Under the pieces are notes generated by a model. The model ran no database searches. It saw only the letters and a program-made list of their open reading frames with translations, and was not told the DNA's origin. 50,676 nucleotides of DNA from a virus: positions 1 to 50,676 of the IMG/VR virus record IMGVR_UViG_3300031841_003662; one strand, given 5' to 3'. Shown here piece after piece: positions 12,414 through 30,903 of the stretch. Within the stretch, counting starts at the first letter, position 1. Each line of letters opens with the position of its first letter. The position numbers were made by a program, and so were the translations under genes.

Positions 12414-13745
12414 ATGCTAAATATCAAGGATAAAAGTCCCGAAGAAAAAGAAGAAGTGGCGGATAAAATTAAGGAAGTGGCACAAAAAGAAAAAGAACTG
12501 GAAACGATTCAAATGGGTTTTACTCATGTTATGTCTGACTATGAAGCCATTACAAATCTTTCTAAGAACCTTAACATCAATGCTACCGAAGCAAGAAAAC
12601 AACTTCAAGTCTTTCCATCCGAATATACCGTTGATGGGCAGACTATTCCCGACCTTATCAAAAAGATGAGAAAAGCCCGAAGGCAATTGAAAGGAGAACA
12701 TAGAACTAAGATGGCAAAAGCGATTGATACGGTTATTGATGGCTACTCCGACCATATTTCAAAGTGCATTGATTCTATCTATTGGATTACTCCCTACAAG
12801 GTTCCTCTTCTAAAAATGCGCTTTAATGAAAAAGATTTACAAAAGTTAAATAAAATTGATGATGTGCCAACAAGAAGACGGGTCGTTGATTCACTTTGTA
12901 AAATGTGGGAAGCAACATTAAGTCAAAATGGGATGGCTTTCTCACCAGACTTTGCTAAATTAGAAAAAGATATTCGCTCTGCAAGAAAAGATTTCAGAGA
13001 AGTAATTAAATCAATAACAGACCAATCTCTTATCAAATCAAGAAAAGAAAGAACATATGACTTTATTCTTGATACTATCTGTGAAAACCCCGGAATTGGT
13101 TTAGGTGAGATTCACGACAGAATGCCCACTTCTTTACACAAAAGTTCCTCAATTAAAATTATTAAAGGAATGATTAAGAAAATGGATGTTGGTGAAGTAG
13201 AAGGTAGCCACTATAAATTGCCGAACATGCTAAAGAAAAATATTTGGGCTTACACTGCGGCATTTATTGATTCGGACGGATATATTACAATGGATAGAAG
13301 CCATAACCCAAGAGTCGGTTTAGTCGCAACAGGCGACAGGGGGAGAGTATTCATGGAAGAAATTCATAAGGATATTGGTTTCGGAAAACTGCATTTAAAT
13401 CAAAAGTCTCCGCAAGATACTCGCCCTGTTAATCGTTTAAATTTTTATTCTCAAGACGATGTGCATAATCTCTTAACTAAGTGTTTGCCACATCTTAGAA
13501 TGAAGAAGGGAAATGCAGAATTGCTTCTTGAGTTAGTTAGGATGAAGAAAGGATTCAAAAAAGAAGCATGGTATAAAGAACGCTGTGATGAAATTTTCAA
13601 ACTGATGAAGTGGGAGAACCATAAAGACCATGTTGGTTTTGACTTCTCTAAAGAGGGAATTTACTTGGATGATATTCAAAAATACAAAGACAATTGTAAA
13701 ATGTCTGTTATGGATTCTATGGAACGGATTGGAACGGTGTTGTGA
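12414..13745 (+). CDS. LAGLIDADG-motif endonuclease-like protein with long N-terminal extension
   Basis: The 443-residue protein carries WAYTAAFIDSDGYITM near residue 278, a single LAGLIDADG-type motif, followed by about 150 residues of typical homing-endonuclease pattern. The first 280 residues are not part of such an enzyme: they are helical and charged, with a winged-helix-like segment near residues 215-270 (TYDFILDTICENPGIGLGEI). It sits between terminase and portal and is not inserted in either. It may be a freestanding homing endonuclease or one recruited to packaging. Which holds is not decidable here. Confidence 0.75.
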   Translation: MLNIKDKSPEEKEEVADKIKEVAQKEKELETIQMGFTHVMSDYEAITNLSKNLNINATEARKQLQVFPSEYTVDGQTIPDLIKKMRKARRQLKGEHRTKMAKAIDTVIDGYSDHISKCIDSIYWITPYKVPLLKMRFNEKDLQKLNKIDDVPTRRRVVDSLCKMWEATLSQNGMAFSPDFAKLEKDIRSARKDFREVIKSITDQSLIKSRKERTYDFILDTICENPGIGLGEIHDRMPTSLHKSSSIKIIKGMIKKMDVGEVEGSHYKLPNMLKKNIWAYTAAFIDSDGYITMDRSHNPRVGLVATGDRGRVFMEEIHKDIGFGKLHLNQKSPQDTRPVNRLNFYSQDDVHNLLTKCLPHLRMKKGNAELLLELVRMKKGFKKEAWYKERCDEIFKLMKWENHKDHVGFDFSKEGIYLDDIQKYKDNCKMSVMDSMERIGTVL

Positions 13746-19763: not shown

Positions 19764-20122
19764 CATGGGATTTTTACGACGATGGACGAGAAATTAAGTT
19801 AGAAAAGGCTAAGAAGTCTGAGACTATTCTTAATTCTCTTGACCCAAAGCAAAAAAAGGCTTTGAAAAAGACGCTGCAAGCAGCAGAACCGACAGAATTT
19901 TTTGGGCAGGACTTTACCAAATTAGGTGAATTACTGAACATGATTGAGAGTTTAGAATTTACGAAGTCGGATAAAGCATTAACGAAGAAAGTTAAGAGCA
20001 TGGATGAGCGCAACCTTGATATTGTCGCTACTGCTACCAAACTTCGTAAGGAGTATGAATTGCTCTATCGTCAAATTAGAGATTTAGTTTATCCAAAGCC
20101 AAAAAGAAAGAAAGGTGAATAA
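19760..20122 (+). CDS. Accessory protein with weak tag-like start
   Basis: The 120-residue protein starts MTWDFYDDGREIKLEKAKKSE. The Trp at position 3 fits the tag but the following residues do not, so it may be a degenerate member. The body is helical (ALKKTLQAAEPTEFFGQDF) and ends in a basic tail. GAGGAGG-type Shine-Dalgarno bases precede the ATG. Function unknown. Confidence 0.65.
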   Translation: MTWDFYDDGREIKLEKAKKSETILNSLDPKQKKALKKTLQAAEPTEFFGQDFTKLGELLNMIESLEFTKSDKALTKKVKSMDERNLDIVATATKLRKEYELLYRQIRDLVYPKPKRKKGE

Positions 20123-20123
20123 T

Positions 20124-20366
20124 ATGACAGATTCGGACATTAATAAAGACTTGTTGGAGATTATTAAGGCTCTAACAGATAAAATTGAAAGATTGGAAAA
20201 GGCAGTATATAACGACGATAATCTACTAATGAAGTCGGGTTTCGTTGTAGCAAATACTCCAACGCCACACATTAGCAATTCTGCGCCAATGTCGCCAGCA
20301 GGTGATATTGCGAAGATGGAATGGAGCGATATTCACGAATTAGTCAAGAAAGCAGGGGGACAATGA
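20124..20366 (+). CDS. Small scaffold-like coiled-coil protein with C-terminal tag
   Basis: The ATG at 20124 follows GGTGAATAAT and is preferred to a GTG at 20115. Residues 8-30 form a short coiled coil (LLEIIKALTDKIERLEKAV), a Pro/Ser-rich linker follows, and the end is KMEWSDIHELVKKAGGQ. This closely matches the C-terminus of the prohead protease (SMDWSDIHKMVRGI), so both probably bind the same partner. In tailed viruses the C-terminus of scaffold contacts the capsid protein, which makes that the leading candidate. Confidence 0.7.
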   Translation: MTDSDINKDLLEIIKALTDKIERLEKAVYNDDNLLMKSGFVVANTPTPHISNSAPMSPAGDIAKMEWSDIHELVKKAGGQ

Positions 20367-20592: not shown

Positions 20593-21024
20593 TTGTCTTG
20601 GGATTCTGTTCTTAAGAGGAGTGAAATTTTTGACTTCCGAGGAAAAGATAAAAATTTTATGATTTCTATTACAAATCACCCAACATTGGATGATTGGGAT
20701 TACAACGATATTAGAGTTAGTGTATTCTCCGAAAAAACAGATAGTGATGATGATGAGATTAGATTATCTATTGAAGAGGTCGCTCTTGAAGGACAATTGA
20801 TTGGCTACACTAAAGATGAAAAGGAAGAATATATAAAATTAAAAACAGCACTAACTAATGATGAAATTGAAATTGATTTTGCTTTTAGACAAAAACCCGT
20901 AAAAGAAAATTTTCTCAATGTATATATTGAAAAGGCTTCAATAGACATAGAACTTGATTTCCAAAACACAGAAGACATAAAGAAAGCATATTGCACATTA
21001 GTTCTAATATACACTAATAGTTGA
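20593..21024 (+). CDS. Tagged protein, TTG start (MSWDSVLK)
   Basis: The TTG at 20593 lies shortly after AAGTGATTT and gives MSWDSVLKRSEIFDF. The arrangement (GTGATTT, T-run, TTGTCTTGG) is like that at the 3070 gene, which also uses TTG. The 143-residue body is predominantly beta-strand, unlike most tagged proteins, and acidic. No family is recognised. Confidence 0.65.
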   Translation: MSWDSVLKRSEIFDFRGKDKNFMISITNHPTLDDWDYNDIRVSVFSEKTDSDDDEIRLSIEEVALEGQLIGYTKDEKEEYIKLKTALTNDEIEIDFAFRQKPVKENFLNVYIEKASIDIELDFQNTEDIKKAYCTLVLIYTNS

Positions 21025-21029
21025 TAGTT

Positions 21030-23534
21030 ATGGCATATCTCATTGAGAAGGACAGTCCTTCGGAAGAAATTCTGCGACTCTTTGAAAAAACAAGAGTCGC
21101 ATATCTTTCTGCAAGAACAGACCCCAAAGAATACGGCGGTCGTTGGCGTAAGTCAATTGAGAACATTCAAGACCTTTATGATGATTCAAGCGAATTAGGT
21201 GAAGAGTTAAAAGACTTCATCCAAGAAGCCGACATTGAAAACAATGAGGCTTCCGACCCCCAATCAAATACTGCTGAAAAGATATACGAAGGCATCAAAG
21301 CCTTTCGTATGTCTTCGGAATATGTTAGCGACCCCTTCGCTAAAAAGTTTAAAGGGAATGTTCTTGAAGCATTATTGGAATCTCCAGAGTTAATGGTTAA
21401 ATTCGTCCACTATGCTATGAGGGCAGACGATAAAGCCCTATCTCCAGACATTTATAGCATTAAAGACATGGAGCCTGACGAGATTACAGATGGGCTTAAG
21501 GGGCTTGACCTACAATCGGACGACATCGCCCTCTATATCATTGAGCAATACGGGGATGGAAAAGACTCAAAGAAGGTAGAAAAGAAAGTTAAGACCGCCC
21601 TTGACTTTTTGGAACTCCTCTATTTCTCTAAGCATCAAGAAGAAGATTGGGAAGAGTTAAAAGATATTGAAGATATGGACTTAACTAAGTCCGAAGAAGA
21701 GAAATCTCAATCGGATTTCATTTTACCCAATAAACCAATGTATCGTATTTTTGATATTGAGGACATGAATGAGTTAAAAGGATTCAGTGGAGAATATATC
21801 GTCCAAGAAAAGTATGACGGTATGAGAATCCAAATTCATAAAATTGATAAGAAAATCACAATTTATTCCTATAATGAAAAAGACATCACTTCAAAGTGTA
21901 AAGAAATCGTAAAGGAGATGGAGAAGAAACACTTTGGAGATTGCATTCTTGATGGTGAATTGATTCTCTTTGATGATAAAGAAGCACTTCACCGAGCAGA
22001 TACAATCGCTCATGTTTTCAAAGGCAAATACAAAGATGCTACATTAAAAGCACATATGTTTGACATTATGCGCCACAATGATAAGAAGATTGTTGATGAA
22101 ACATTACAGCAAAGACTCAATACAATGTTCAACAATTACTCTATTCATTCAAGTGATGTTCTTAATTTTCCATCAAAGAAAGATACGAGAATGGCTGATA
22201 GCATAAAGGATATTGAAGAATATGCAAAGGCTATTATGGAAATGCCAACCGCAGAAGGCGTTGTTATTAAAGACGCTACATCTACATATTTTGAAGGAAC
22301 AAAGAAGAACCCAAAATGGATTAAGTGGAAGAAGTTTGTTGATTTGGATTTAGTCGTTCTTGATAAGAAGAAGACTAAGAGCAATTTATATTCCTATACA
22401 TTGGGTGCTGGCCCATTAGATGAAGATGCCGAAGGTCAAGAACTAAATGGCAAGAAATACATGAATGTTGGCAAAGCACTAAACACTAAAATTTCTGTTG
22501 GTGTTGGCGATATTGTTCGTGTTAAGGTTGATGAAGTCAAAGAATCCGATGGAAAATACACTGTCTTTTCAGCAAAGGTTATTGAGGTTCCCGAAGTAGA
22601 TTCACCGGAAAAAATCATAACTTTAGAGATGCTATCTAAAGACACTAAAAAATCCTTGAAGTATTCTGTTGAGGCATTGACCAAAGGAGTTAAAATTACC
22701 GACCACATTCACGGAGAGGCTTCTGTTATTATCAAGGGAGACTTTGATGGCTTTACCATTTATGGCTTTGAAGAAAGCAATCTAATGTCAAAGAACGCTT
22801 TGGCTGATTTAGATATGTGGAAAATTCAAGCAGAAGAAATTATGAAGACCAAACAAAGTAAAATCATTGTGGCAATTTTTAATTATCTTAAGAAAACTGG
22901 AAGTAAAACTCCCCAAGAACTACACAAGTTTTTAATTGGTAATAAATTTACAAAAGACCTATATGAAGATTTGTTGGAATCTAAATCAGCAAGGCTAAAG
23001 GATTGGTTAGAAGATAGGGGTAAAGACCACGGTGTTCTCTTTAGGGGCAATAAGTTTATTCACGACCCAAATAAAATTATGGCGGAAATTAAAAAGTATG
23101 AGACTCCTGAAGAATACCGAGAAGGTGATTTCAAAATTTATCTAAGAGATGATGGCAATTTAAATCTTATTATTAAACTGAAAGATGAAACTCTCAATTG
23201 GTTCATTGACTTAGAAAAAGACGAAGATATTTTTGACCTCTTTGGAAAAGCAGGAAAATATCCTGCTATTGTCGGTAAAGACCTTAATAAGAAAAAGGTC
23301 ATTGATGAAGGAGAAGTTAAGTTAGGTGTTCAAAGAACAGGCTATCACGAATACTTCTTAGAAGGTAATAAATTTGAAACAAAGATTCACTTTAGAGTAA
23401 TCCCTGCCGAAGAAGGTAAAATGTGGATTGCTTTTACTGGGTATAAACAAAGCCCTGCTGATAAGGATAAGGATAAAGGATTGTGGAATATTTATGATGA
23501 TGGGTATAATGAGTTGCCCCTCCCCAAGAAATAA
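21030..23534 (+). CDS. ATP-dependent DNA ligase with extra N- and C-terminal regions
   Basis: The 834-residue protein has the nucleotidyltransferase core of ATP-dependent ligases: motif I EKYDGMRIQ (adenylated Lys about residue 261), motif III DGELILF, motif IV AEGVVIKD and motif V WIKWKKF, followed by an OB-like region. It would seal DNA nicks using ATP. Around 250 residues precede the core and about 300 follow it. The C-terminal part has a beta-rich stretch (FKIYLRDDGNLNLIIKLKD...) that faintly recalls the phosphoesterase domain of bacterial LigD but lacks obvious catalytic His residues. The start was placed at ATG 21030 rather than TTG 21021. A ligase between head genes is unusual. Confidence 0.85.
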   Translation: MAYLIEKDSPSEEILRLFEKTRVAYLSARTDPKEYGGRWRKSIENIQDLYDDSSELGEELKDFIQEADIENNEASDPQSNTAEKIYEGIKAFRMSSEYVSDPFAKKFKGNVLEALLESPELMVKFVHYAMRADDKALSPDIYSIKDMEPDEITDGLKGLDLQSDDIALYIIEQYGDGKDSKKVEKKVKTALDFLELLYFSKHQEEDWEELKDIEDMDLTKSEEEKSQSDFILPNKPMYRIFDIEDMNELKGFSGEYIVQEKYDGMRIQIHKIDKKITIYSYNEKDITSKCKEIVKEMEKKHFGDCILDGELILFDDKEALHRADTIAHVFKGKYKDATLKAHMFDIMRHNDKKIVDETLQQRLNTMFNNYSIHSSDVLNFPSKKDTRMADSIKDIEEYAKAIMEMPTAEGVVIKDATSTYFEGTKKNPKWIKWKKFVDLDLVVLDKKKTKSNLYSYTLGAGPLDEDAEGQELNGKKYMNVGKALNTKISVGVGDIVRVKVDEVKESDGKYTVFSAKVIEVPEVDSPEKIITLEMLSKDTKKSLKYSVEALTKGVKITDHIHGEASVIIKGDFDGFTIYGFEESNLMSKNALADLDMWKIQAEEIMKTKQSKIIVAIFNYLKKTGSKTPQELHKFLIGNKFTKDLYEDLLESKSARLKDWLEDRGKDHGVLFRGNKFIHDPNKIMAEIKKYETPEEYREGDFKIYLRDDGNLNLIIKLKDETLNWFIDLEKDEDIFDLFGKAGKYPAIVGKDLNKKKVIDEGEVKLGVQRTGYHEYFLEGNKFETKIHFRVIPAEEGKMWIAFTGYKQSPADKDKDKGLWNIYDDGYNELPLPKK

Positions 23535-23544
23535 AGCGAGTCCA

Positions 23545-23580
23545 TTATATACTTGAAAGGATAACGGAGGTTTGAAACAC
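23545..23580 (+). promoter_or_regulatory. Possible TATA-type promoter and leader of prohead protease
   Basis: TTATATAC (23545-23552) is followed about 25 bases later by the start region of the protease gene, and ACGGAGG (23564-23570) is a clear Shine-Dalgarno. It would allow separate expression of the head genes. The short gap and AT-rich background make this weak. Confidence 0.3.
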
Positions 23581-24810
23581 ATGAACGGAGGTGTCTTGGC
23601 GGTAAGGAATGACGATTTCAGCATTCTCAAAAGCGCAGACGACCTTATGATTGGAGGATATGCAAGCATTGAAATCGTGGATAAACAAAATGATTTAATC
23701 ACATTAGATGCTTTACAAGACGCAGTTAAAAAATTCATGGAAGAACCAAGATTCAGAAATGTAATGACAAACCATTCAAATGTTCAAGTGGGAGAAGTAG
23801 TAGATTCATACCGAGATAAAAACGGAAGATTATGGAAATCAGAAGTAGATGATGTCGGATTCTTTGTTGTGATTAAATTAAGAGACGACATAGAAAAAGC
23901 AAAAGAAGTAGGAAGAGGAATTCGCAAAGGGTCGTTAAGGTCATTTAGCATTGGTGGACAAGCATTACGAAAAGTAAAGAAAAGCCACGAAAGGATGGGA
24001 GAATACAACGAAATTAGCAAATTGGAGTTGCATGAAATTACTATCTGTGAAAAAGGAATTAACCCCGAAGCGAGATTTGATATACTAAAACAAGAAAAAA
24101 CAGGTGATGTTATGACACAAGAAAAACTGGAAAAAGCATTAGGCGAATTGGATGAACTTTTGAAGGAAGTCAATTCGTTAAGAAAAGAAGAAGGAGAAAC
24201 GGAATCGGGCGAATACATGAACACCGAGATGGCCGCTAATGAGGACATAGAAGAAGGTAATTATGAAGAAATGGCCGCTAATGAGGACATGGAAGAAATG
24301 GACATCCAAACCGCAGAAGAAAGAGAAAGAGCAGAAAAGGCTTATCTCCGAACCCTTGACGGTGCTGGAAACCAAATCGGTGAACCTGCTGATAGAATCG
24401 TTATCAACAATGGTCGCCCCACTTCTTCTGATATGCCTGTTGTTAAGGCATTCAACAACAATGAATTGCAAACGCTTGATTTGAGCGTTAGCAACATTGA
24501 GAAGGCTTACGAGGCTTTCCGCCAAGAGCAATTAGAGGCTTTGGCTTACGATAACCTCAAGAAGTCTTTTGAAGACAGATTCGCTCAAGAAGTGAATAAC
24601 AGAGAAAATGTGATTGCCAAGCAAAACTACGATGCTGCTTCAGAAATCGCTTCTCTTAAGAATGAATTTAGTGAACTCCGTAAGTCTCTTACTACGGAAA
24701 AGAACGAAATTCGCAAGGCACAAGAAGAAAGTGCAGTTAATGTTCCAACCGTTGATGATGTCGCCAGTATGGACTGGTCAGACATTCACAAAATGGTTCG
24801 TGGAATTTGA
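23581..24810 (+). CDS. Prohead protease fused to scaffold, C-terminal tag
   Basis: Residues 1-165 resemble the XkdF/HK97-type prohead serine protease: GGYASIEIVDKQND, a His in VMTNHSNVQVGEV and a Ser in GSLRSFSIGG. The protease matures the capsid. An acidic linker with a 14-residue repeat (MAANED) follows, then a coiled-coil scaffold region (about residues 290-390). The last 14 residues are SMDWSDIHKMVRGI, related to the tag on accessory proteins. ATG 23581 follows ACGGAGG; TTG 23572 is too close to it. The capsid gene is 11 bases downstream, the usual order. Confidence 0.85.
   Translation: MNGGVLAVRNDDFSILKSADDLMIGGYASIEIVDKQNDLITLDALQDAVKKFMEEPRFRNVMTNHSNVQVGEVVDSYRDKNGRLWKSEVDDVGFFVVIKLRDDIEKAKEVGRGIRKGSLRSFSIGGQALRKVKKSHERMGEYNEISKLELHEITICEKGINPEARFDILKQEKTGDVMTQEKLEKALGELDELLKEVNSLRKEEGETESGEYMNTEMAANEDIEEGNYEEMAANEDMEEMDIQTAEERERAEKAYLRTLDGAGNQIGEPADRIVINNGRPTSSDMPVVKAFNNNELQTLDLSVSNIEKAYEAFRQEQLEALAYDNLKKSFEDRFAQEVNNRENVIAKQNYDAASEIASLKNEFSELRKSLTTEKNEIRKAQEESAVNVPTVDDVASMDWSDIHKMVRGI
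24229..24297 (+). repeat. Short tandem repeat in protease linker
   Basis: ATGGCCGCTAATGAGGACAT is present at 24229 and 24271, with a 42-bp period. It encodes the repeated acidic MAANED segment in the linker between protease and scaffold. Confidence 0.8.
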
Positions 24811-27501: not shown

Positions 27502-27882
27502 ATGCCAGCATTAAATACAGAAACCCGTTTGGTTATGACGATTCTTTTCGTTGGAACCGTTAGCGGAGCAAATGTTTTCTTTTACGCAAATTATGGAACA
27601 GGTTTCCCACACGGCACTTTAGCCCATGCAATTCTATTTGGGTTGATTACTGTCGGTGCTATCATGGTTTTGAAAGCACTATTTGATATTGCTCTTAATG
27701 ATAGAATTGAGATGTATCTTCTTGACCAAAGAATCAAAGCATATTGGGAAAGAAAATCAAAAGAAGAAGCCCAAAGGCAAAAAATTCGTGAAACCTATAA
27801 AACTACTATAATTGCTCAATCCCCTACTTATGAATCGGCTGAAAATTCTATTGGAAATGAATTTTTAGCGGCTTTACAGTAG
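27502..27882 (+). CDS. Small membrane protein, two TM segments
   Basis: The 126-residue protein has two hydrophobic segments, about residues 10-28 (VMTILFVGTVSGANVFFYA) and 38-62 (LAHAILFGLITVGAIMVLKAL), then a charged helical tail that would face the cytoplasm if the N-terminus is also inside. It could be a holin-like, virion-membrane or host-interaction protein. It precedes another membrane protein and a GTPase, so the three may form a unit. Confidence 0.65.
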   Translation: MPALNTETRLVMTILFVGTVSGANVFFYANYGTGFPHGTLAHAILFGLITVGAIMVLKALFDIALNDRIEMYLLDQRIKAYWERKSKEEAQRQKIRETYKTTIIAQSPTYESAENSIGNEFLAALQ

Positions 27883-27890
27883 GTGATTAA

Positions 27891-28106
27891 ATGATTGGCG
27901 ACTGGTTGGGATTTTCCGATTCCGATTATATGTATAATCAAACTAGAGCGCATTCTGCTGATATTTTTTTTCTTAAAGCAAAGGCTTGGTTTTACGGTAT
28001 TACTTGCACCGTTGCTGGCTTTTTGTTTGGGAATATCATGGGTGTTTTTGATTTAAATATCATGGGTTTCCTGTTTGACACTTTGTTAAACGGGTGGGGG
28101 CATTAA
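27891..28106 (+). CDS. Small membrane protein (71 aa)
   Basis: The product MIGDWLGFSDSDYMYNQTR has an N-terminal polar part and one or two hydrophobic segments (about 30-68, AWFYGITCTVAGFLFGNIMG and on). Its stop overlaps the GTPase start (TAATG), so expression is coupled to it. No family is recognised. Confidence 0.65.
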   Translation: MIGDWLGFSDSDYMYNQTRAHSADIFFLKAKAWFYGITCTVAGFLFGNIMGVFDLNIMGFLFDTLLNGWGH

Positions 28107-28768
28107 TGTCATTAATGACAGGCTTTGCTATTTTAGTCGGTGAAGCAATTATAGGATTCTACAAAAAGGTTCACGCAATTAATTTTGGAGTTTACGGGGC
28201 CACAATGGTAGGAAAAACAACATTAAGTCATCAGTTAAGAACAAGGGGAGAAGTGCCTACAATACAAGAAAGAACAGTTGGAAAGCATAGAGCCTCAAGA
28301 AAAACAGTTAAAATAGACGGAGAATCCCATACAGTAAGGAGCGCAGATATTGGCGGAGAAGCAATTTATTGGAAGCAATGGGAAAAAGATATGCGAGAAA
28401 GAAGAGTAAAGTATGTTATATTTATGATTGACCACCGACACTTAGATAGTAATTCAAATTTAGACCACCAATTAGCATGGAAGTTTTTAGTAGATACAAT
28501 TATTTCAAACACATGGTCAAACGGTAAAAAGAAAAGAGATTCAGATTTTCCTATGGCTGTTGGTATTTGGGCAAATAAATATGATGTTTGGGGAGAAAAA
28601 CATAAGTCTGATAAAGAAATAGACAAACATGAAATTTTTGAGCCATTCACATATGGAATGAGAAAACTAAATGATAAAGGAATACCGTGTTTTAAGTATA
28701 TTGTATCAGCAAAATCACAACCAGAAATGGTGTATAAAGGGATTACCACAATGATAAAGGACTACTGA
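28106..28768 (+). CDS. Membrane-anchored Ras/Arf-like small GTPase
   Basis: The 220-residue protein has a hydrophobic N-terminus (about residues 3-19) and then the full set of small-GTPase motifs: G1 GATMVGKTT (31-39), a Thr-containing switch I (TIQERT, 52-57), G3 ADIGGE (80-85, like Arf DxGGQ), G4 NKYD (157-160) and G5 SAK (201-203). It should bind and hydrolyse GTP. The order and spacing fit the Ras/Arf superfamily, not a DNA motor. The Gln after GG is Glu, which may lower hydrolysis. The start is at ATG 28106, coupled to the membrane gene. Its role in a virus is unknown. Confidence 0.8.
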   Translation: MSLMTGFAILVGEAIIGFYKKVHAINFGVYGATMVGKTTLSHQLRTRGEVPTIQERTVGKHRASRKTVKIDGESHTVRSADIGGEAIYWKQWEKDMRERRVKYVIFMIDHRHLDSNSNLDHQLAWKFLVDTIISNTWSNGKKKRDSDFPMAVGIWANKYDVWGEKHKSDKEIDKHEIFEPFTYGMRKLNDKGIPCFKYIVSAKSQPEMVYKGITTMIKDY

Positions 28769-28773
28769 TTATT

Positions 28774-29079
28774 ATGTGGAAAGATATTTTAAAGGGTAGA
28801 GGGTCAGCAAGGAAATTAAATCATAGTTTTTTGAAACAACTCACTTTAAGTTTGGCTAACAAACACAAAGGAAAAACACTTGCCAAAGACGAATTTCTAG
28901 ACTTTTTAGAACAAATAAGACTAATTTATTCTCTTAAACACACAAACATACCGCTAGACCGAATTAGCGTCCCTGTTGTAAGAATATTAAAAAGAAATAA
29001 TTTATTAGAAGTTAAGGCAAAAAGACTTGGCCCAGAAGAGTATAGAAAAGAAGAAAAATTTTATATTTTTAAGGAGTGA
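28774..29079 (+). CDS. Tagged protein (MWKDILK)
   Basis: The 101-residue product begins MWKDILKGRGSARK, the tag with no residue between Met and Trp. The rest looks like a winged-helix domain (FLDFLEQIRLIYSLKHTNIP and VPVVRILKRNNLLEVKAKR). The leader TGATTATTATGTGG is repeated at the next tagged gene. Confidence 0.65.
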   Translation: MWKDILKGRGSARKLNHSFLKQLTLSLANKHKGKTLAKDEFLDFLEQIRLIYSLKHTNIPLDRISVPVVRILKRNNLLEVKAKRLGPEEYRKEEKFYIFKE

Positions 29080-29084
29080 TTATT

Positions 29085-29624
29085 ATGTGGTTTGATGTTA
29101 TCAAGGCCCTTCAAAGAATTGCTCTTAGTAAAAACGATAAAATAACAAAAGAAAACACAAGGCAAAAAGAGAGTATTAAACCCAAAGGCTTATGGTATTC
29201 GTTTAGTTTAGGAAGTGGGTGGATGAAAAGAAATATGTTTGATTATGGTTGGCTACGCTCATATAAATATATTTTGTATTTGGACACTTCCCAATTAAAC
29301 ATTTTACAAATCAAAAATTTAGAAGATGCTAAGGACTTTTATGAAAAATTTGGCCTTAAAACTGACCCTTTTAGAGTAATAGCAAAATGGGATATTGTTG
29401 CTTACACATATGATGGAGTAGAATTATTAAATTACGAGTCATGGGTAAGACCAGCCTATTCGGTTAGCAAAGACGAAGATGCTCTCATGGATATGTTTTA
29501 CGGATGGGACATGGATTCAGGTTGTATCTGGAATACTCAAAATTTAAAGGTTAAAAAAGTAAAGCCTATTGAACAACGACACTACAATAAACAAGATGAA
29601 GAATTATATGGAGGATATGAATAA
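29085..29624 (+). CDS. Tagged protein (MWFDVIK)
   Basis: The start at ATG 29085 follows AAGGAGTGATT, preferred to GTG 29076. The protein begins MWFDVIKALQRIALSK, the tag. The 179 residues that follow are mixed alpha/beta with many aromatics (GLWYSFSLGSGWMKRNMFDYGW) and look folded, but no family is recognised. The stop overlaps the next start (TAATG). Confidence 0.65.
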   Translation: MWFDVIKALQRIALSKNDKITKENTRQKESIKPKGLWYSFSLGSGWMKRNMFDYGWLRSYKYILYLDTSQLNILQIKNLEDAKDFYEKFGLKTDPFRVIAKWDIVAYTYDGVELLNYESWVRPAYSVSKDEDALMDMFYGWDMDSGCIWNTQNLKVKKVKPIEQRHYNKQDEELYGGYE

Positions 29625-30253
29625 TGTATCAGCAACCGCAATTAATTAGCAACCAAACTGCACTAGCATTTTTGCCAAAACTGCAACAGTTTAGAGCCGC
29701 AGGACAAATTGAAGAATATAAATATGATTCAATCAAGCCAAAGAAAAAACTAAAAGAAATCACAAAGGTTCTCATGCCCGAAAAGAAAAAGATTCTTTTT
29801 GTAAAATACGGATACAAATTTAATCTAAAGGATAGATGTGTTGTTTGTGGAATGCACCATGTTTGGGAAGCAGGTGATTTTCTTCGCCCTCCAATTCCTT
29901 TAGACCGTGTGGAAAAAGGGAGGCCATTAAGAGGAACCTATTGTCCTAAACACGCTTCTGTTCATAAACAGATGGAAATGCTACAACAACAGATTCTTGC
30001 AGAACAACACGGATTAGATTTCAAGGCATTTATCCCAAGACCAAAAATGCCTCAAATGAGCAAAAAGGGGCCATTAACCTCCCTATCTCAAAATGATATT
30101 GCCTCGCTCTCGGCCATCGGATATATTATAACCTCACCCGACATGAGAGAAACGGAAACGCCAATTGATGAGGTCAAGCGTCTAACCAATGAGATTCAAA
30201 ACGCTAATGTGCGTATTCAGGAACTATTAAACAAAAAGGACGGTGAAAAATAA
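29624..30253 (+). CDS. Zinc-binding hypothetical protein
   Basis: The 209-residue protein contains C72-x2-C75 (CVVCGMHH) and C107-x2-H110 (CPKH), a treble-clef or ribbon-like metal site. The C-terminal part is helical (EVKRLTNEIQNANVRIQEL), probably coiled coil. It lies between accessory genes and the connector region. Function unknown; DNA or protein binding is plausible. Confidence 0.6.
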   Translation: MYQQPQLISNQTALAFLPKLQQFRAAGQIEEYKYDSIKPKKKLKEITKVLMPEKKKILFVKYGYKFNLKDRCVVCGMHHVWEAGDFLRPPIPLDRVEKGRPLRGTYCPKHASVHKQMEMLQQQILAEQHGLDFKAFIPRPKMPQMSKKGPLTSLSQNDIASLSAIGYIITSPDMRETETPIDEVKRLTNEIQNANVRIQELLNKKDGEK

Positions 30254-30903
30254 TGGTATTTGGAACAAGTAATAAAACAGTTTTAGGGGCGGTTCAAGCC
30301 CAAAACGACCAGCAATTTAAGAATGTAAATAACCTGCTTTCTTTGCAGGATAATCATGTTGAAGAATTCTTCCAATATCACGGTGAAAAGTTTTTGCAAG
30401 CACTTGAGAAATTAATGGAAGATGTTGTTCAAAGAGTCGTTTCTCAGATGTTAGGAAATTTAGCATTTATTACAGATTCAACGACAGGTGGCCTTAAAAT
30501 TCATCCCGATGCTATGAGAGAATTTGAAAGAATTACTCAAGAAAACATTGACCTTGACATTCAACAGATTTTAGCAGTTGCTCTAAACACCGAGGTTATA
30601 AACCAGCGAAAATTGGCTAAACAACAATACCTAGAATCTCAAGGTTTTGGAGGCGCAGGTGGCCCTTCGGCAGGTCAGGCTATCGCAGGTATTACTGGAC
30701 AAACGCAACAATACCAGCAAATGCAGGGGGCCATGAATAACGGGTCAGGCTACCCCATTCCCCCAAGCGGAACAGACGGCTATGGCCGTCCATATTGGAT
30801 TGACCCGAATAATGGTCAAATGTCATACGAACCGCCATCAAGCGGCTTACATCTCGGTTCTGCAATTCAAAAGGGTGCGGCTTGGGCTAAATGGTTAATG
30901 TGA
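30253..30903 (+). CDS. Hypothetical virion protein with Gly/Gln-rich tail
   Basis: The 216-residue protein has a helical N-terminal half (NHVEEFFQYHGEKFLQALEKLM) and a Gly-, Gln- and Pro-rich second half, ending GAAWAKWLM. The low-complexity tail and neighbours suggest a structural role. The Trp-rich C-terminus is only loosely like the tag. No family is recognised. Confidence 0.6.
   Translation: MVFGTSNKTVLGAVQAQNDQQFKNVNNLLSLQDNHVEEFFQYHGEKFLQALEKLMEDVVQRVVSQMLGNLAFITDSTTGGLKIHPDAMREFERITQENIDLDIQQILAVALNTEVINQRKLAKQQYLESQGFGGAGGPSAGQAIAGITGQTQQYQQMQGAMNNGSGYPIPPSGTDGYGRPYWIDPNNGQMSYEPPSSGLHLGSAIQKGAAWAKWLM

Follow-up and report, generated by a model that had tools for sequence, protein, structure and literature searches.

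Why should a tailed virus keep a small GTPase of the Ras/Arf type among the genes that build its virion? The locus that raises this question lies in a stretch of 50,676 nucleotides (IMG/VR record IMGVR_UViG_3300031841_003662, positions 1 to 50,676; hereafter the window), where an initial annotation had proposed a Ras/Arf-like GTPase with an N-terminal membrane segment in a head-tail region. We found the open reading frame where that annotation had placed it, at 28106-28768 on the plus strand, encoding 220 amino acids; the ATG with which it opens at 28106 shares bases with the stop codon of the preceding gene (TAATG), its own stop codon ends at 28768, and the genes around it do form a head-tail operon.

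The window fits the virion half of a magrovirus genome (order Magrovirales, with Poseidoniales archaea as hosts). Magrovirales are viruses of Poseidoniales that have genomes of 90-110 kb, a split PolB and a capsid protein related to that of the Druskaviridae (PMC10768690, PMC12999244). The relatives of the window, marine contigs 88-97 kb long, have their PolB in two pieces, and the capsid protein is about 25% identical to that of HCTV-5 (Druskaviridae) and also matches SU10-type capsid models. It is because of these genome features, the divided PolB and the capsid match that we assign the virus to Magrovirales, on the evidence of relatives that show the defining features of the order, the window itself being a 50.7-kb fragment. 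One record, IMGVR_UViG_3300021958_000021 (L025, L198; 184,733 bases), has about twice the genome length, four PolB pieces and homologous regions at two places, and would seem to be either two genomes joined head to tail or two strains assembled together. Within the window, a 443-aa protein between terminase and portal (12414-13745) carries a LAGLIDADG-like AAFIDSDGYI in its C-terminal half and possibly has a homing-endonuclease-derived domain. In the head cluster, an 837-aa protein with a DNA-ligase-like KYDGMR motif (21021-23534) lies between an 83-aa protein and the prohead protease, a place that it keeps in 100/100 loci with enough flank.

The GTPase itself was compared with 49 diverse relatives, whose identity to the window protein is 61-95%, and has the following parts:

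28106-28768, plus strand: small GTPase with an Arf-like fold, 220 aa, recognised by motifs, profile matches, an AlphaFold model and structure searches
28109-28171, plus strand: N-terminal hydrophobic/amphipathic helix (residues 2-22), proposed membrane contact, with invariant G6, F7 and E13 and a helix in the AlphaFold model
28196-28222, plus strand: G1/P-loop GATMVGKTT (residues 31-39); G31, G36, K37, T38 and T39 invariant in 49/49
28271-28282, plus strand: G2, switch I, RTVG (residues 56-59); R56, T57 and G59 invariant in 49/49
28346-28360, plus strand: G3, DIGGE (residues 81-85); D, G and G invariant, position 85 Glu in 46/49 and Gln in 3/49
28574-28585, plus strand: G4, NKYD (residues 157-160), guanine specificity; N, K and D invariant in 49/49
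28706-28714, plus strand: G5, SAK (residues 201-203); invariant in 49/49

The five G motifs that had been read from the letters (GATMVGKTT, the switch Thr, DIGGE, NKYD and SAK) are therefore all present, and they are not a product of chance: the P-loop (G.{4}GKTT), the switch-I threonine (T57), DxGG, NKxD and SAK show no variation across the relatives. The full series G1-G5, in order and including NKxD and SAK, is the motif signature of the Ras superfamily (TRAFAC) and occurs in 49/49. The position of the catalytic glutamine in DxGG[E/Q] is held by Glu in 46 members and by Gln in three, so that the Arf-type DxGGQ is found in only 3/49.

Profile searches point the same way, at scores below the curated cut-offs. 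The NCBIfam model for the small GTP-binding domain, TIGR00231, matches 46 of the 49 relatives (best E 8.7e-7, below the curated cut-off). When whole records were searched with this model, it gave exactly one match per magrovirus in 4/4 tested, always the GTPase gene, and none in two haloviruses, a halovirus-related contig, a sister magrovirus and another archaeal-virus record. The window protein falls short of the curated cut-offs of TIGR00231 (22.8 against 42.5 bits), PF01926 (18.4 against 21.9) and PF00071 (16.2 against 21.6), and in a single-sequence Pfam search all its scores lay under the cut-offs. These scores bar filing the protein under TIGR00231, PF00071 or PF01926; they do not bar the superfamily call, which stands because it is based on motifs and fold. 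The Arf model PF00025 matches weakly, in 10/49 members at E<=0.01 (best 3.6e-5), the window protein not among them, and finds no match in the window record; matches to the SRPRB profile are also weak (12/49 members, best E 8e-5). A phmmer search of the window protein against the PDB was likewise weak (best E 0.023).

Structure prediction gave a clearer answer. While a first AlphaFold model, built from 26 close sequences, was of limited quality (pLDDT 66.5), with poor switch regions and ambiguous structural neighbours, an improved model from 49 diverse sequences (pLDDT 74.2, pTM 0.73) has the Ras order of strands and helices, with six strands and a C-terminal helix, and a helix at residues 2-22 in front. 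A Foldseek search with the model returned 1300 matches at E <= 0.001 (best E 2.1e-8), with Rab/Ras/Arf and G-alpha complexes among the matches listed. In VIA-align the best 30 rows were all Arf/Arl/Sar1 (Z 13.7-14.9), led by Arf6 (Z 14.9, 161 aligned residues, rmsd 2.9, 21% identity) and followed by G-alpha (Z 13.6), the Asgard ArfR protein GerdArfR1 (Z 13.6) and Rab5 (Z 13.3). In a library of viral structures, the named matches were mostly giant-virus proteins of Ras/Rab type. The predicted fold thus shows a modest preference for Arf, by a small margin over Rab and G-alpha, which agrees with DxGG[E/Q]. The structure search suggested by the initial annotation thereby places the protein in the Ras superfamily with Arf/Arl/Sar1 as best matches, in line with both its superfamily call, to which the motifs and TIGR00231 matches also speak, and its description of the protein as Arf-like. 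Residue 2 is Ser in 44/49 members, leaving no Gly2 for myristoylation, and because of this missing glycine we file the GTPase as Arf-like and not as a canonical Arf.

The same data bear on whether the protein might belong to another P-loop class, such as the kinases or packaging ATPases, or be a degenerate GTPase without function. Profile scores under the cut-offs, weak PHROG matches to kinase/Sak4 near the P-loop and, in most members, a Glu in place of the catalytic Gln could all be read in this way. NKxD and SAK, however, are GTPase-specific and invariant in 49/49, the Foldseek and VIA-align matches listed are Ras-superfamily/G-alpha only, and the family is under strong purifying selection (median dN/dS 0.05 over 25 close pairs). 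Both ideas are largely refuted and we regard them as scarcely credible; a firm placement in another P-loop class, which had been named as fatal to the original reading, was not seen, the motifs being those of a GTPase and the fold that of Ras.

What had been described as an N-terminal membrane segment is, in part, just that. A hydrophobic helix does occupy residues 2-22, with Glu13 in mid-helix invariant among the 49 relatives, yet residues 1-19 score only as a marginal transmembrane span (approximate dG +1 kcal/mol on a simplified hydrophobicity scale, low helical moment). Distant relatives have a Lys at position 17 and an amphipathic helix, with moments up to 0.62, whereas the helix of the window protein is more uniformly hydrophobic. 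Judging from sequence, the segment is likely to be a membrane-contacting helix, lying in the plane of the membrane or spanning it.

A GTPase with such a helix could be a mimic of an Arf/ArvA-like or SRP-receptor-beta-like host GTPase, hijacking host trafficking or targeting so as to redirect membrane insertion, vesiculation or cell-surface turnover. The N-terminal helix would suit this, as would the weak SRPRB and Arf profile matches given above, and archaeal small GTPases that act in vesiculation do exist (PMC10927574). Against it, we detected no close cellular homologue in the genome collection, where the search, limited by exact peptide patterns, returned a single match, a 12-kb magrovirus-like contig. 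Mimics usually remain recognisably near a host gene, and we consider a hijack of this kind unlikely. The matching contig (L095, NZMJ01000024.1, 12.2 kb) comes from a Maricaulis MAG, carries the GTPase with the upstream membrane genes in magrovirus gene order, and is probably a mis-binned viral contig. The family is also absent from PHROGs, apart from the weak matches near the P-loop, from phage and plasmid records and from PADLOC. The GTPase is not mentioned in a magrovirus survey, and a prior annotation as "GTPase" elsewhere in the magrovirus literature is possible.

Within magroviruses the gene is a constant feature. It was found at the same place in 46/46 capsid-selected loci with enough flank and, in a second, broader capsid search, in 34/34 magrovirus loci with at least 2 kb downstream, which answers the question, raised with the original reading, whether its locus is conserved among relatives. 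Most sampled magroviruses have the GTPase as a core gene, in single copy, within the late (virion) operon. Furthermore, its conservation equals that of the capsid protein: the all-pairs median identity, used because identities from loci picked by one gene are biased both ways, is 74.6% for the GTPase, 73.5% for a 216-aa protein encoded downstream and 71.0% for the capsid protein. Of the 54 proteins that two divergent genomes share, only three are more conserved than the GTPase (61.3%), namely two with the size and position of portal and terminase and one of 625 aa; the capsid protein is level with it at 61.2%.

This pattern bears directly on the suggestion, also part of the initial annotation, that the GTPase excludes rival viruses. 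A membrane-associated protein could act in superinfection exclusion or counter-defence at the membrane, and the late operons of viruses often include genes for exclusion. Such genes, like those for defence, are however usually patchy and quick to evolve, while this one occurs throughout its clade, matches the capsid protein in conservation, is held at a dN/dS of about 0.05 and has no PADLOC match. Because the GTPase is never missing and hardly varies within the clade, we regard exclusion as very unlikely. Between the other two stages that the annotation named, entry and exit, the sequence itself does not discriminate.

The GTPase does not travel by itself. It belongs to an all-or-none module of two small membrane proteins, the GTPase, a Cys/His (zinc-type) protein and the 216-aa protein, which in the window is arranged around the GTPase as follows:

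27502-27882, plus strand: 126-aa membrane protein, upstream of the GTPase in every case, with two transmembrane segments (one strong, one marginal) and a charged tail at the C-terminus
27891-28106, plus strand: 71-aa protein, the immediate upstream neighbour, with a single marginal transmembrane segment and a stop that overlaps the GTPase start
28774-29624, plus strand: variable insert outside the module, made up of a 101-aa and a 182-aa gene, both with an N-terminal W..I.K tag
29624-30253, plus strand: 209-aa protein with a conserved CxxC...CxxH (predicted zinc site), always alongside the GTPase
30253-30903, plus strand: 216-aa protein, almost as conserved as the GTPase and always alongside it

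Wherever the flank suffices, this order is kept, with the 126-aa and 71-aa proteins upstream and, after the variable insert, the 209-aa and 216-aa proteins downstream, and in 121 loci the GTPase starts within -1 to +1 bases of the stop codon of the upstream membrane-protein gene. As a group, the module genes have the capsid protein/decoration genes on one side and the head-completion gene on the other. When two divergent genomes are compared, only the 126-aa protein and the tape measure protein, of all the late-operon proteins in common, have a convincing transmembrane span. A lenient transmembrane threshold let through one more shared protein, a head protein encoded beside the capsid gene, probably as a false positive. 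The 216-aa protein is soluble and highly conserved. The 209-aa Cys/His protein has no detectable similarity to known GAPs or to ArvC, and neighbouring proteins have no Pfam match to DUF2073 (ArvB) or DUF2072 (ArvC); a role for the 209-aa protein as a regulator of the GTPase is possible.

The two insert genes are rarely shared (3/132 loci for the 101-aa gene and 10/126 for the 182-aa gene) and belong to a larger set. Across the window, the tag M(x)W(K/E)xI(L/V)K opens 18 of the 56 called proteins, against a mean of 0.17 and a maximum of 2 for shuffled proteins; on the plus strand their ORFs start at 960, 2074, 2288, 2581, 3070, 7525, 8711, 9118, 9476, 10014, 13919, 15852, 16250, 17040, 20593, 28774, 29076 and 34663. 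Proteins of a sister-clade virus (L269) bear the same tag, which by analogy looks like a T4-style capsid-targeting sequence for proteins packed inside the head. The 83-aa protein (20115-20366) and the prohead protease (23572-24810) share a related C-terminal motif, EWSDIHELVKKAGGQ and DWSDIHKMVRGI, which may serve as the counterpart to the N-terminal tag in docking or cleavage.

All five module genes are missing together from the haloviruses and from a sister clade of magroviruses (L268-L273), which keeps homologous genes for a 115-aa protein (42.4% identity), head completion (39.9%) and the capsid; the whole 64-kb record of one sister, which may be a fragment, has no GTPase. On the capsid-protein tree, presence of the module needs one change (support 99/99), and we read this as a single gain. 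The existence of sisters without the module rules out that the GTPase is needed for any virion of this kind, and magroviruses and haloviruses that lack it must release their virions in some other way.

What, then, does the module do where it is present? Conservation at the level of the capsid protein implies an essential step, and a universal, slowly evolving gene of the virion operon should serve a necessary late one; the module is probably an essential, undescribed part of how these viruses work. We tentatively favour a late, GTP-controlled switch at the host membrane, whose most likely task would be membrane remodelling for virion release, the cell biology being what we infer from the genes. 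Release at the host membrane is preferred because the gene appears to serve a late step and the 126-aa protein has a convincing transmembrane span. The GTPase would work on the cytoplasmic face of the host membrane, its N-terminal helix lying on the membrane or within it, next to the two membrane proteins of 126 and 71 aa. Once loaded with GTP, the protein would expose its helix and switch regions and recruit or reorganise the partners. Late in infection the switch would then deform the membrane or open it, most likely to let virions out. Hydrolysis of GTP, probably slow by itself and stimulated by a partner, would reset it, and the best candidate for the stimulator would be the Cys/His protein, by analogy with zinc-type Arf GAPs and ArvC. 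In this its action would resemble that of Arf or ArvA, a likeness of mechanism and not a claim of identity. The complete G motifs, the Arf-like fold, the hydrophobic-to-amphipathic helix with its invariant residues, the coupling to a membrane-protein gene, the constant company of the five genes and their single gain all speak for this release model, as does the example of a haloarchaeal small GTPase that buds vesicles with the help of two operon partners (PMC10927574); the Cys/His protein, having no GAP or ArvC similarity, and the place of the module speak against it.

That place matters, since lysis genes are unusual between capsid and connector genes, and a structural or assembly role is therefore nearly as likely. 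As a morphogenesis switch, the GTPase and its four partners would help to build the particle, by docking proheads or connectors at the membrane or by timing head completion, and some of them might end up in the virion. The location of the genes, with those for capsid protein/decoration to one side and that for head completion to the other, their conservation at the level of the capsid protein and the soluble, highly conserved 216-aa partner speak for such a role. Two of the partners are, however, membrane proteins, and sister magroviruses and haloviruses, which lack the module, make similar virions from capsid and connector genes that are homologous. Nonetheless, assembly at the membrane closely rivals release, and a morphogenesis switch is a possible, if rather doubtful, answer. 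Returning to the release model, its fullest form, in which an obligatory step of infection, most likely release, is run by the virus's own Arf-like GTPase machine of switch, two membrane partners, zinc-type regulator and effector, is a possibility more than an expectation.

Membrane-shaping small GTPases are seen as a eukaryotic hallmark, and their archaeal forerunners (ArvA, Asgard ArfR) have been shown to be active only recently. Poseidoniales are some of the most abundant archaea of the ocean, and a GTPase lineage of this kind as a core gene in their viruses would mean that prokaryotic viruses use the principle too. Moreover, the module offers a concrete five-gene candidate for how tailed archaeal viruses handle the host membrane, a long-standing gap, and the module can be tested outside its uncultured host. 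If the release model is true, this would be virus-encoded, GTPase-driven membrane remodelling in a prokaryotic tailed virus, and a first concrete mechanism by which a tailed archaeal virus leaves its host.

Among tailed viruses, the haloarchaeal Druskaviridae (HCTV-5 and HVTV-1) share a homologous capsid protein (about 25% identical) and protease, but have neither the GTPase nor any of its four module partners. Among GTPases, eukaryotic Arf/Arl and Asgard ArfR are the best structural matches (Arf6 Z 14.9, GerdArfR1 Z 13.6) and share DxGG[Q/E] and a helix before the G domain that is able to meet the membrane. They differ in sequence (about 15-23% identity, with PF00025 at best a weak match) and in setting, the viral protein being part of a five-gene module in a tailed virus; unlike Arf/Arl, it lacks Gly2 and usually has Glu at the catalytic position. 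In haloarchaea, ArvA drives vesicle budding with ArvB and the zinc-ribbon protein ArvC, a suggested GAP (PMC10927574). ArvA (OapA) is likewise a small GTPase of archaea that has an N-terminal helix, comes nearest to Arf when profiles are compared and is encoded in an operon with a zinc-type protein (PMC10927574), whereas the viral partners are two membrane proteins and a 216-aa protein, with no DUF2073/DUF2072 match; the likeness of the module to the ArvA system, drawn from descriptions, is an analogy. Finally, the Ras/Rab GTPases of giant eukaryotic viruses are also virus-encoded and have the same fold, and one report proposes a role for the mimivirus Rab in virion membrane biogenesis (PMC4569851). 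Those proteins, however, are recognisable copies of eukaryotic genes, while the magrovirus family is a distant lineage seated in the virion operon of a prokaryotic tailed virus.
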